Positions 1,535 to 5,691 of a DNA stretch of 34,254 bases are shown here, piece by piece. How positions within the stretch are numbered: position 1 is the stretch's first letter; every line of letters starts with the position of its first letter. Location of the stretch: positions 1 to 34,254 of the forward strand of contig CANLCU010000009.1 in assembly GCA_947489135.1 (NCBI GenBank), given 5' to 3'. Under the pieces are notes generated by a model, which ran no database searches, had not been told where the DNA came from, and was given only the letters and a program-made list of their open reading frames with translations. The translations under genes were made by a program, and so were the position numbers. Source of the stretch: Micrococcales bacterium (lineage in GTDB: Bacteria > Actinomycetota > Actinomycetes > Actinomycetales > Microbacteriaceae).

Positions 1535-1672
1535 TTCAGGTATTGTTGAGAAGCACCCGTCCGGCTGATTACAGGCGGCCGGGAGCACTGGCTAGTTACC
1601 CAAGCGGCCAAAGGGATCTGACTGTAAATCAGCCGGCTCAGCCTTCGGGGGTTCGAATCCCTCACTAGCCAC
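1535..1672. repeat. Left copy of 138-bp direct repeat (leader plus complete tRNA-Tyr)
   Basis: Matches 5554-5691 at a constant offset of 4019 bp. Differences seen only in GTTG (1545-1548) versus CTTT (5564-5567), i.e. 2 mismatches by eye. Confidence 0.93.
1590..1671 (+). tRNA. tRNA-Tyr (GTA), copy 1
   Basis: Acceptor GGCTAGT/ACTAGCC, anticodon loop CTGTAAA (GTA), long variable arm, T-arm GGGGGTTCGAATCCCTC. Confidence 0.94.
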
Positions 1673-1682
1673 ACTGTTTTGA

Positions 1683-1711
1683 CTCGAGGCATGCTTCTTA
1701 CATGTCTCGAG
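1683..1711. repeat. Inverted repeat directly downstream of tRNA-Tyr copy 1
   Basis: CTCGAGGCATG (1683-1693) versus CATGTCTCGAG (1701-1711), one mismatch, 7-nt loop. No strong T-tract follows. Confidence 0.6.
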
Positions 1712-1824
1712 ATCAGAACCTCATTGATCTAGATGCTGGAAAGTTGCCAATTCGAGGATCTCATTCACATTTCTTCTAAAATCTTTCACAAAACTTAAGA
1801 TCTGTGTAATACTAAAAGCACAAA

Positions 1825-1888
1825 GACCCGATTACCGAACTGTCACCGTATGGTGTGCGTGTCTCCCCGAGAGACTAGGTATCGGGTC
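1825..1888. other. Highly structured intergenic element (three-way-junction-like fold); candidate small RNA or bidirectional terminator
   Basis: GACCCGAT-T-ACC (1825-1836) pairs with GGTATCGGGTC (1878-1888), enclosing CACC-GTAT-GGTG (1844-1855) and GTCTC-CCCGA-GAGAC (1861-1875). Confidence 0.45.
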
Positions 1889-1906
1889 GATTTCTTTAAC
1901 GGCTCC

Positions 1907-2590
1907 TTATGGCACCTTCCAAAAATCCGACTTCCCATGGCTCGAAAATGGAGCAAGCATGGCTTTGTAAGAAGCTTGGTTTTTGTCCGATGTGTCGCTT
2001 GAGCGTCTTATGCAACCGGCGAACATGTCAGCAACCTGAATCAAAGAGTCGGTGTGAGATTTTACATAACTAACTTTTCTAATGAATTCAGTACCAGATT
2101 TATTCACCTCTGCCAGCAAGTATTTTCTAGCCGCAGACCTGTATTCTCGACTGCCTGTTCCATCAATTTTTACAGTGGCACCTTGGATAGTTCCTCCCGA
2201 ATTGGTTAGGACAAGTTGAATCACGTAGTTGTAGAAGGACTCAGTGCCATTTTGAAAGACATGCCTATCAATTGTTCTTTTATCCACCACTATGGATCGG
2301 ATAAAGAATAATTCAGGATTTAGCGAACTGAAGAATCTTTTCTGCAATTCGAGCTTTGTCTTGGAAAACTTAAATTCACTGTGACTTGACCTGCCAAGCT
2401 CATTACGAAGCTGTTTCACCAGGTGAGCAGTATGTTCTGCGTTCTCCGCCGACTCGAAGACGCAGCAAGCGATGACAAATAGATGGCTTGAACCGCTCTC
2501 AAGCTTGAAACCCGCATCGCCTGAGTCATCGATGAACACATACATTTGCTCAAGTGTAGGCGAATCATGCATCGAACGGCCTTCGCCCAA
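1907..2590 (-). CDS. DUF3800-type protein
   Basis: N-terminal MYVFIDDSGDAGF motif and later QVADMFAGCIRR typical of DUF3800 proteins. N-terminal start uncertain (possibly the internal M of MYVF). Confidence 0.8.
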   Translation of the reverse strand: MGEGRSMHDSPTLEQMYVFIDDSGDAGFKLESGSSHLFVIACCVFESAENAEHTAHLVKQLRNELGRSSHSEFKFSKTKLELQKRFFSSLNPELFFIRSIVVDKRTIDRHVFQNGTESFYNYVIQLVLTNSGGTIQGATVKIDGTGSREYRSAARKYLLAEVNKSGTEFIRKVSYVKSHTDSLIQVADMFAGCIRRSSDTSDKNQASYKAMLAPFSSHGKSDFWKVP

Positions 2591-2645
2591 GACGTATTGG
2601 GGACACCCAGAAACCAGATACTCTCAGCTGCGCAAGCAGCACTTC

Positions 2646-3902
2646 TTACGTAAGTTGTCTAGCAGCTTCACGCTTCAGACTTACGCCAGCGGCATCAACC
2701 GAGTTGCGGTAGCACTCTAAAGCGTGATCTGATTGATCTAGGCCCTCGTAAACCTCTGCCATCTGAGCCCAGATTTTGGCTGTTGCACGAGACTTATTGT
2801 TGTCTTTTAGAAGTGAGGCAGCTTCAAGAAGGAGGTTCAGCGGCCGTGATTCAACTTTGCAAGCCAGAAGTACTTGAGCGTTGTCAACCAATCGCTCAGC
2901 TTTTTCCAGTTTTGGTAAGTGATTGCAGTAACTCAACGATTCATTAGCCTTTGAAACAGAACTTTCAATTTCCCCTCTCAGGAGGTAGGCCATTGCGAGA
3001 GTGTTCAGGGTGTTGGCAAGGTCTGCATCGCTTTTCTCTAGACCAAAGAGTTCAATTATTTGAAGTAAGTCTGCGATGTCGCTGTCACTAGGAACTCTGT
3101 TTGTCAGGCATGAAATAAAAATGGACCCCTGGATAAGGCGGGCCTGGGACATCTTGCGATCGAGCCCTGCAATAAGTTGGCTCGCACCTACAATCTGTTC
3201 TCTTGCTTGAACGAAGTCCCCGCGCTCATATGAAACCTGGCTTGCAGACCAAAGACCTACAACTGCGTCCCAGGTTGTGTCTACTGAATCTGGTCTGGAT
3301 TTGATCAATTCACTAGCTTTGGTCAGATCTCCAACCGCTAGGTAAACAGAGGAAAGAGTTGCTTTAGTTTCAAGCTGTAGTGATGTGGTGTCGAAGTTTT
3401 GCTGAGCAAGGTGTTCAAGGTGCTGCTGACCCCAATATATTGCTGAATAGAAATCGCCGTGATTTCTTTCAAGCCTTATTAAGCCCAAGACTGCTCGCTG
3501 GAGAGACTTGACGGGAAGCGATTTATTTCTAGCAGCGGTCTCTAATGCTGAAATCGCTACCTGGTTGTCTCCATCTCTCACAGCGATCAAACCTTGAAGG
3601 AGTAGGGCTTCATTCTCATTCTTGAGGCGTGGTAGCCATAGCTTGGCAGCCCGAGAGGAGTTGTTTTGAAGCTCCAGGCATGCCTGAAGTAACTCGGTTG
3701 ACTCAGATTTGCTCGGAGCGTCTTCGTCTGAAATGCCTAGTCTGAGGTGGATGGCCCCCAAGATCTCAGGGCTAGCATTTCGTTGACCGCGTTCTATAAG
3801 GGATAGGAGGCTAACCGAGCAAATGCCTTTAGCAGTATCTTCAAGGGACCGCCCAGCCCGAAGCCTTGCCTGCCTCAAATATTGTTTGTCAAAGTCTTTC
3901 AC
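2646..3902 (-). CDS. HTH (XRE-like) regulator with a long C-terminal TPR-like helical-repeat region
   Basis: N-terminal LRQARLRAGRSLEDTAKGICSVSLLSLIERGQRNASPEILGAIHLRLGI is HTH_3/XRE-like. The remaining ~350 aa is all-helical with TPR-like repeats (e.g. AKIWAQMAEVYEGLDQSDHALECYRNSVDAAG). GTG start. Confidence 0.8.
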   Translation of the reverse strand: MKDFDKQYLRQARLRAGRSLEDTAKGICSVSLLSLIERGQRNASPEILGAIHLRLGISDEDAPSKSESTELLQACLELQNNSSRAAKLWLPRLKNENEALLLQGLIAVRDGDNQVAISALETAARNKSLPVKSLQRAVLGLIRLERNHGDFYSAIYWGQQHLEHLAQQNFDTTSLQLETKATLSSVYLAVGDLTKASELIKSRPDSVDTTWDAVVGLWSASQVSYERGDFVQAREQIVGASQLIAGLDRKMSQARLIQGSIFISCLTNRVPSDSDIADLLQIIELFGLEKSDADLANTLNTLAMAYLLRGEIESSVSKANESLSYCNHLPKLEKAERLVDNAQVLLACKVESRPLNLLLEAASLLKDNNKSRATAKIWAQMAEVYEGLDQSDHALECYRNSVDAAGVSLKREAARQLT

Positions 3903-3916
3903 AAGACAACACTATC

Positions 3917-3947
3917 TTGACAAAATAGCTCAGAGAGCGTGTATGCT
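3917..3947 (+). promoter_or_regulatory. Putative housekeeping-type promoter for the peptide/secreted-protein operon
   Basis: TTGACA at 3917-3922 and TATGCT at 3942-3947, 19-nt spacer (longer than optimal). Confidence 0.45.
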
Positions 3948-3950
3948 CTT

Positions 3951-3975
3951 CATGTGTCAAAAATATTGACACATG
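3951..3975. promoter_or_regulatory. Perfect inverted repeat, likely regulator operator
   Basis: CATGTGTCAA-aaata-TTGACACATG: 10-bp perfect arms, 5-bp spacer, in the divergent intergenic region just downstream of the putative -10. Confidence 0.7.
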
Positions 3976-3994
3976 TGAAATACAAGGGGCCAAA

Positions 3995-4090
3995 ATGATC
4001 GAGTTTATTTACTTTCTCATCACTGGGGGACAATCGAGTCAATACGAAATCACGACAACAGGCACTCCTGTCTGCTGCGAGTTCGAATAA
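3995..4090 (+). CDS. Small ORF (31 aa), candidate signalling or modified peptide precursor: MIEFIYFLITGGQSSQYEITTTGTPVCCEFE
   Basis: Not in the supplied ORF track. ATG preceded by AAGGGG (3984-3989) at 5-nt spacing; TAA at 4088-4090; the next gene has the same AAGGGG RBS 18 nt before its GTG. Confidence 0.55.
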   Translation: MIEFIYFLITGGQSSQYEITTTGTPVCCEFE

Positions 4091-4108
4091 AAATAAAAAG
4101 GGGTAGCT

Positions 4109-4714
4109 GTGTCAAAAAAACAAATTGCACTGGCATTACTGATTCTAGGCATTGTGGGGTTTTCCGCCCAAGGTATCTATGCACAGGTGCAGAAATCAAA
4201 TTCAATCTCTCAATGGGACAATCTCAAGCCAAAACTAGAGGAAAGTCTTGCTGATGTCGGTGACGAGCAACTGGTCGAATCCTTGAGGGGAAGAATCGTA
4301 GAGCTCATGGAGGCAAGGGCTACTTTGTCGAACGTTGATGTGACAACTGCTCAAAGGACTGATCTGGAATCATCCTCAGAGATACGTCAGACCGTTGAAG
4401 AGCTGGTGTCAAAAGTTTGGACCTCCAGAAACCTAGCAAAAAGAACTGACGACATAGTAGCTGGTTGGAACATTGCAAAATTGCATCCAAACTATAGACC
4501 ATTTACAAACGCTAAGTACGTGTTGGATTCTTGGCAAGGAATACGAGTTGCGGAAGGCGGACTTTCAGCAGAAGCTATTGTGACAGGTACAATGACATAC
4601 GTTTACGACGACGGAGCTATCGCTGACAGCCTCGATCAAAGTCAAATTAAAGTTGTCAAAGAAAACGGAATTTGGCTCCTCGATGAAACTGTCATGGTGT
4701 ACGTGGGGCGATGA
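4109..4714 (+). CDS. Secreted/membrane-anchored hypothetical protein (possible NTF2-like C-terminal region)
   Basis: GTG start with AAGGGG RBS; N-terminal MSKKQIALALLILGIVGFSAQGIYAQ signal/anchor sequence. Confidence 0.8.
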   Translation: MSKKQIALALLILGIVGFSAQGIYAQVQKSNSISQWDNLKPKLEESLADVGDEQLVESLRGRIVELMEARATLSNVDVTTAQRTDLESSSEIRQTVEELVSKVWTSRNLAKRTDDIVAGWNIAKLHPNYRPFTNAKYVLDSWQGIRVAEGGLSAEAIVTGTMTYVYDDGAIADSLDQSQIKVVKENGIWLLDETVMVYVGR

Positions 4715-5406
4715 AATTGATGAAGAAGAGGACGGCCGTTCTAATTTCGGCAATTTTTGCCTTCCAGGCAGGGTGGGCTGGATCTTCGAGCGCAAGCACG
4801 TTGGGTTATACATACAACAGAGCAGCTGCAGTCGCCTATGCAAATAAGTGGTCATGCAATGGGAGCACATCATGTCGAAACGGCGATTACCAAAACCTTG
4901 GAGATGAAGACTGTACCAACTTTGTCTCTCAGGCTCTATTCGCCGGAGGCGTAACTGAAGTAAAAACTGGCCAGGGCTTCGAGCAGTGGTGGTACGACGG
5001 CTATGAAGGCCTATGGCTAATTGGACCCTTGAACCGCTCCCTAAGCTGGGGTCTGGTCACGAACCTTTCAACTCATCTACAAGCAACAGGAAGGGCCACC
5101 GGAGTTACTCTCACCAACATGACAACAAAGTACTCTGGAGCTCATTCCGCAGGCGGTGATATTTTTATGTATGACTGGGGGAAAGGCGAAGGCTATTCAC
5201 ACATGGCGTTATCTACTGGGCGTGAAACTTACTACCCGTATACAGATCCAATATACGGGTCTTACACAAACATCACCGGTGGTTCAGGAGATTCAATTTC
5301 CCAACATTCAACCGATAGGGATCATGCTCCTTGGAATTGGGGATATTGGACAACCACATTGGAATACCGCGCAAAATACAGGGTCAAGCTCCTAAAAATG
5401 AATTAA
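4711..5406 (+). CDS. Secreted putative amidase-domain protein (Amidase_6-like, Cys/His catalytic motifs)
   Basis: Overlaps the upstream gene by ATGA. Signal peptide MKLMKKRTAVLISAIFAFQAGWAGSSSAS; YNRAAAVAYANKW, EDCTNFVSQALFAGG, YSHMAL and SQHSTDRDHAPW motifs typical of amidase-domain proteins. Confidence 0.85.
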   Translation: MKLMKKRTAVLISAIFAFQAGWAGSSSASTLGYTYNRAAAVAYANKWSCNGSTSCRNGDYQNLGDEDCTNFVSQALFAGGVTEVKTGQGFEQWWYDGYEGLWLIGPLNRSLSWGLVTNLSTHLQATGRATGVTLTNMTTKYSGAHSAGGDIFMYDWGKGEGYSHMALSTGRETYYPYTDPIYGSYTNITGGSGDSISQHSTDRDHAPWNWGYWTTTLEYRAKYRVKLLKMN

Positions 5407-5553
5407 AACAACGATTCCCAGTACCTCAAACACTGTTCCTGATTCTGGGCATTCCAGTAATAGCAGCAGTTAGTTTCTTGGTTGGACCACCTAAGCGTTA
5501 CAAGTTCAACCCAAGGTTGGCTCTCGACTAGACCAGCTAACTCGAAGAGGATA

Positions 5554-5691
5554 TTCAGGTATTCTTTAGAAGCACCCGTCCGGCTGATTACAGGCGGCCG
5601 GGAGCACTGGCTAGTTACCCAAGCGGCCAAAGGGATCTGACTGTAAATCAGCCGGCTCAGCCTTCGGGGGTTCGAATCCCTCACTAGCCAC
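5554..5691. repeat. Right copy of 138-bp direct repeat (leader plus complete tRNA-Tyr)
   Basis: See 1535-1672. Confidence 0.93.
5609..5690 (+). tRNA. tRNA-Tyr (GTA), copy 2
   Basis: Identical to the copy at 1590-1671. Confidence 0.94.

Follow-up and report, generated by a model that had tools for sequence, protein, structure and literature searches.

Gene organization of the locus

The window, the whole stretch of 34,254 nucleotides that was analysed, contains an island of about 4 kb (1535-5691) that is flanked by two 138-bp direct repeats, with a complete tRNA-Tyr in each. Inside it a short open reading frame is followed by two genes for secreted-type proteins, and a divergent gene encodes a regulator with a helix-turn-helix (HTH) domain and tetratricopeptide repeats (TPR).

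1535-1672, + strand: left 138-bp direct repeat with tRNA-Tyr, island border
1907-2590, - strand: DUF3800 protein, island gene downstream of the regulator (PF12686, E=6.5e-16)
2646-3902, - strand: HTH-TPR regulator, presumed receptor (HTH_3, E=1.3e-7; TPR matches; AlphaFold2 pLDDT 89.5)
3887-3903, no strand: candidate operator O2, TGTCAA-N5-TTCACA (one mismatch), covering the regulator start codon
3951-3975, no strand: candidate operator O1, perfect palindrome CATGTGTCAA-AAATA-TTGACACATG, intergenic, core unique in the assembly
3984-3989, + strand: AAGGGG ribosome-binding site of the propeptide ORF, from direct reading
3995-4090, + strand: putative propeptide ORF, 31 codons, C-terminal ..TPVCCEFE, from direct reading and the Cys-Cys and position in relatives
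4098-4103, + strand: AAGGGG ribosome-binding site of the next gene, from direct reading
4109-4714, + strand: 201-aa protein with an N-terminal hydrophobic segment, operon cargo, no known family
4711-5406, + strand: Amidase_6 protein with an N-terminal hydrophobic segment, operon cargo (PF12671, E=7.6e-22)
5554-5691, + strand: right 138-bp direct repeat with tRNA-Tyr, island border

The layout described in the sequence-only reading is confirmed by direct reading of the DNA: the ATG at 3995, 5 nt after AAGGGG, opens 31 codons (MIEFIYFLITGGQSSQYEITTTGTPVCCEFE) that end with TAA at 4088-4090, and the second AAGGGG sits 5 nt ahead of the GTG at 4109. There is no in-frame alternative start upstream of the ATG. 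The ORF is the first gene of an operon with the 201-aa and Amidase_6 proteins, the former of which has one relative in the genus, there without the regulator. Because the ORF listing around it contains 126 ORFs of at least 20 aa within 8.2 kb, the length of the window ORF is by itself uninformative, and it is the context, a Cys-Cys (CC) ORF that recurs beside homologous regulators, that places it beyond chance. The encoded peptide has a short hydrophobic stretch only, and since a basic n-region (the leader has no Lys or Arg) and a long hydrophobic core are missing, classic Sec export is doubtful for it.

The core of O1, TGTCAA-N5-TTGACA, occurs once in the 1.09-Mb assembly, and O2 lies 68 bp from it; both were assigned as candidate operators from the palindromes alone. 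A consensus promoter scan gave nothing convincing for the peptide operon, and folding of the leader RNA (z -1.9) returned the palindrome as its strongest helix. In two loci from the genus of the window (L006 and L007), TTGACA occurs three times at intervals of 10 bp in the region ahead of the peptide ORF, and these repeats are candidate regulator sites.

The regulator as a presumed receptor

Apart from the HTH and TPR matches, Pfam and NCBIfam have no model that names the regulator, and neither has one for the peptide. The AlphaFold2 model of the regulator (from a 58-sequence alignment, pLDDT 89.5) is all helical, with a predicted N-terminal HTH and a TPR array. A PDB profile search gave weak similarity to PlcR (E=1.1e-8, profile positions 7-175), and a Foldseek search with the model placed PlcR-PapR-DNA, Rap-CSF and PlcR-PapR at ranks 36, 40 and 43 of the top 50. 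As generic peptide-binding TPR proteins (LGN and MalT) outscore PlcR and Rap, the fold indicates a peptide-binding type of scaffold and not a function; the model would fit a regulator that binds peptides. This genome encodes a binding protein of the Opp type (PF00496).

A Cys-Cys peptide ORF accompanies the regulator across Actinomycetota

When 148 related genomes were searched with the window regulator, 10 other loci emerged. In every one of them the regulator is adjoined by a short ORF whose product begins with a hydrophobic stretch and has a Cys-Cys close to its C terminus, giving 11/11 with the window included; examples of the peptides are MSIFLNLFIALVSGRTPSASSGPIHCCSAT, MKRVKMILMTGALAILVSMTAITIAPMSGTGGAQPCCAI and MRPSRRTIAAAAVLAALLAGAVGAAAQASDTEAYGPGPACCTT. 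Searches with a profile of these first-set regulators (A1), which covered 396 genomes from the order and 396 from the class, brought in more families, whose peptides terminate in CC, often right at the stop codon (..FAPTASPGDFCC, ..VQQQRNVWCC, ..VLAGGTWCC and ..VAVLSAEPCC). Three more loci, with tails PWPPCC, PWPHCC and PFPGCCG, came from another Actinomycetota family in a phylum search; among phages there was a single match, on an unannotated faecal contig. In the first 11 loci the CC was seen before it became a criterion; its presence in the last 8 residues was fixed on the first loci as the search criterion and then applied to the rest.

Across loci from the order, class and phylum searches, the proportion with a CC ORF in the 4.3-kb locus declines with the regulator score: 15/15 in the bin with E of 1e-100 or better, then 29/34, 18/24, 11/16, 1/6 and 3/15, and 0/6 among the most distant HTH-TPR regulators, at about 1e-28. 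Some of the misses in this series are filter artefacts, such as L044, where ..GGSMPCCRGFQ is followed by a longer tail, and L083, where the CC frame has no accepted start and was counted as a miss. Near the family regulators L087, L094, L095, L100 (Streptomycetaceae), L104, L110 and L115 no CC ORF passed the filter. In a tree of 64 regulators, with bootstraps that are unsettled and some labels of non-carriers (L009) that are filter misses, the CC carriers cluster (11 changes versus 20.9 when shuffled), and the regulators of the window, L003 and L004 form one clade (100/99, bootstrap unsettled).

Scanning with a second profile (A2) gave 80 named loci from Cellulomonas, Actinotalea, Cellulosimicrobium, Kineosporia, Kitasatospora, Streptomyces and others. 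By strict criteria 78 of the 80 have a CC ORF at most 600 nt from the regulator, and L190, with a weaker Shine-Dalgarno sequence (SD), is the 79th; the control bands at 600-1450 nt and 1450-2300 nt contain it in 0/80 each. In the 650-nt upstream regions it occurs at 77/80 real loci versus a mean of 0.04/80 in dinucleotide shuffles. Since most of the 80 are Cellulomonadaceae, with a few duplicates of loci from the earlier searches, they are not independent, and the class-wide score series is the more independent support for the pairing. Chance as the origin of the ORF is rejected on these pairing statistics (control bands, shuffles and the fall-off with regulator score), and we regard the window ORF as a genuine gene.

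Gene order differs among loci, the peptide ORF being divergent, co-directional and upstream (as in Cellulomonas, where it lies ahead of the regulator in the same direction) or at the regulator 3' end (as in family f45, where it is directed into that end). The peptide is retained throughout this variation, as expected of a two-gene unit.

Three further observations concern the wider set of loci. At L060, L063, L072 and L074 a second, different CC peptide (..GGSDFCC, ..GGSLYCC) lies 3' of the regulator, which suggests either that each locus has two peptides or that a second pair lies next to it. A second HTH-TPR type (E of about 1e-50) at L120, L121, L123 and L124 (family f35) has no CC ORF nearby; these may be orphan receptors or respond to another ligand. 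A BTAD-domain regulator on a plasmid of Streptomyces sp. ADI95-16 (L246, NZ_CP033582.1) has as its neighbours a family regulator and a protein that is annotated as hypothetical and ends in ..KDIPLCC, a neighbourhood that possibly links the system to natural-product control.

Conservation and selection in the peptides

The Cys-Cys is the near-constant part of the peptides: 188 of the 198 cysteines in 94 distinct peptides fall in the C-terminal CC, and the tails, which would be very short once processed, otherwise vary freely. Of the CC and GG whose conservation the sequence-only reading proposed to test, it is the CC that is kept. The Gly-Gly, which had been offered as the mark of a double-glycine leader/core precursor, is absent even from the two closest homologues, L003 and L004 (FLGTS and LVSGRT), and there is no C39-type transporter gene at the locus, so we rejected this assignment. 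Most relatives have, by inspection and hydropathy, a Sec-like hydrophobic leader, often with an AxA-like site. The peptides of L003 and L004, nearest to the window by regulator, are 30-31 aa long and have a short hydrophobic leader as in the window.

Over all census pairs pN/pS was 0.91, a value that is uninformative through saturation, and we therefore used close independent pairs for the selection test. All 22 such pairs gave pN<pS (summed pS 0.267, pN 0.090, ratio 0.34). For L006/L007, in the genus of the window, pS is 0.21 and pN 0.02. The peptides of the relatives are thus under purifying selection, and the lack of amino-acid-level conservation that had been named in advance as grounds for refutation is not what the family displays.

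The tRNA-Tyr island

In a close relative (G056, locus L236) with flanks that are 86% identical, there is one tRNA-Tyr and the cassette is absent, an empty site. G007 has another version of the system, located between a tRNA-Tyr and a perfect 54-nt copy of the 3' end of this tRNA; its secreted-type cargo is different, and a Drt4-type reverse transcriptase is present. Within the genus the system is sparse, being found in the genome of the window and 7 others among those searched, and no integrase was seen in the window island. In this genus the system is at least partly carried on tRNA islands. Two island genes resemble defence proteins: the reverse transcriptase beside the peptide-regulator pair of G007 (L016:9920-11494) matches anti-phage Drt4 (E=4e-98), and the DUF3800 protein of the window resembles the PADLOC candidate defence protein PDC-M04A (E=2e-13).

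A probable peptide pheromone and its presumed receptor

The window ORF probably encodes a pheromone propeptide, and the protein encoded divergently to it, with its HTH and TPR domains, would be both the receptor and a transcriptional regulator. There is direct support for the pairing of the two genes, the near constancy of the Cys-Cys, purifying selection in relatives, the palindromes that resemble operators, the order of genes in the operon and the location in an island, and the fold is predicted. In the mechanism that we propose, the hydrophobic N terminus would drive export of the propeptide, a C-terminal fragment with the Cys-Cys would be released, and at high density an oligopeptide permease would re-import it. 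The fragment would then bind in the TPR groove of the regulator and alter how tightly the regulator holds the operators between the two genes, switching the operon of peptide and cargo (the 201-aa and Amidase_6 proteins) and probably the regulator's own gene too. The sign of regulation is a guess; the position of the palindrome between the genes suggests repression that is relieved by the peptide. The weakest step is the secretion of the window peptide itself, for which the export route is uncertain.

Among the functions put forward for this ORF from the sequence alone, a signalling pre-peptide is the best supported, given the pairing with the regulator in 11/11 and 78/80 loci and the selection in 22/22 pairs. 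The suggestion of a leader peptide that controls the downstream genes is compatible with the window ORF itself, where the next gene begins 19 nt on in the same direction. In an attenuator of this kind, ribosomes would pause on the Cys-Cys codons before the stop at cysteine scarcity; only a few codons separate the CC from the stop, and the Cellulomonas peptide is upstream of the regulator in the same direction. A leader peptide is nevertheless a poor fit to the family. The leaders are conserved and selection acts at the amino-acid level along the peptide ORFs, a terminator-like hairpin follows the CC ORF in 10/22 loci of family f38 and 3/3 of f16 versus 18/345 random windows (in a scan that allowed longer hairpins), and the f45 ORF runs into the 3' end of its regulator. 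The neighbours, moreover, are a regulator and secreted-type proteins with no cysteine genes among them, and the window ORF has an SD whereas the known mycobacterial attenuators are leaderless. We therefore consider attenuation very unlikely.

It is less far-fetched, if still improbable, that the peptide is a secreted effector (a small toxin, a bacteriocin-like or a metal/redox-active peptide) that the regulator controls and does not sense, since the export-type leader, the Cys-Cys, the co-expression with secreted-type proteins and the island setting would also suit an antagonism cassette. The processed tails, however, would be very short and vary freely apart from the CC, the receptor has the architecture of a peptide-sensing regulator, and no consistent immunity or modification gene lies beside the pair in the loci that were read. 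It is hardly credible that, in a family functional elsewhere, the window ORF arose by chance or is a copy that has decayed or been orphaned. Its leader is short and without Lys or Arg, and no ortholog of the window ORF close enough for dN/dS was found, but the SD is good, the CC, the position and the regulator are all intact, and G001 and G007 share a matching form of 30-31 aa with CC.

Beyond the pheromone and receptor reading, one might envisage a phylum-wide peptide language of Actinomycetota built on the C-terminal Cys-Cys. The adjacent cysteines would be in the oxidised state extracellularly and would be reduced by mycothiol once in the cytoplasm, which would let the receptor sense both which peptide is present and its redox state; some copies would be spread by small tRNA islands. 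We put this forward as speculation that is rather unlikely to hold.

Signalling in the Actinomycetota, which include Streptomyces and relatives, the source of many antibiotics, is thought to be mainly by small molecules. If the pheromone reading is true, actinomycetes of many families have a genetically encoded, easily synthesised peptide signal, and the short Cys-Cys peptide would be a direct probe for the genes that it switches, including those near natural-product regulators.

Relation to known systems

A literature search, with most subscription journals and all preprints outside its reach, returned no earlier description of this system, and a review of quorum sensing in Actinobacteria mentions peptides in general terms only (PMC4748050). 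The family of short Cys-Cys peptides with HTH-TPR regulators is widespread in Actinomycetota and apparently undescribed.

Some members have weak TPR similarity to the NsdA family (NF053720, 36 bits for L010); this lies under the cut-off of 75, and the window regulator gives no NF053720 match. In mycobacteria, cysteine-responsive short ORFs act as attenuators, according to the part of PMC9094748 that cites Canestrari et al. 2020. These are likewise short actinomycete ORFs in which Cys codons come shortly before the stop, but they are leaderless, whereas the present ORFs are SD-led and have an export-type leader, an HTH-TPR partner and, in some families, a terminator at their end. The streptococcal SHP-Rgg and ComS-ComR systems likewise have a short hydrophobic propeptide adjoining the regulator, and the window peptide (31 aa, no clear Sec n-region) is SHP-like. 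The doubled CC recalls the doubled WW near the C terminus of ComS. The differences are the CC in place of WW, the other phylum, the other receptor lineage and, in most relatives, longer, Sec-like leaders.

The closest likeness in architecture is to the RRNPP(A) systems of Bacillota (PlcR-PapR, NprR-NprX, Rap-Phr and AimR-AimP), in which an HTH-TPR receptor is paired with a short exported propeptide (PMC9765709) and which censuses place in Bacillota/Firmicutes (PMC10075063, PMC9765709). Here too a cytoplasmic HTH-TPR regulator lies beside a short export-type propeptide with its C terminus as the presumed signal, and the genome of the window has an oligopeptide-permease binding protein. The present system differs in its phylum, in its weak similarity to PlcR and in its near-constant C-terminal Cys-Cys. 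This doublet is not a known feature of the PapR, NprX, Phr or AimP pheromones. We conclude that the system, whether or not it shares descent with RRNPP, would work like RRNPP quorum sensing yet forms a distinct, uncurated lineage of Actinomycetota.
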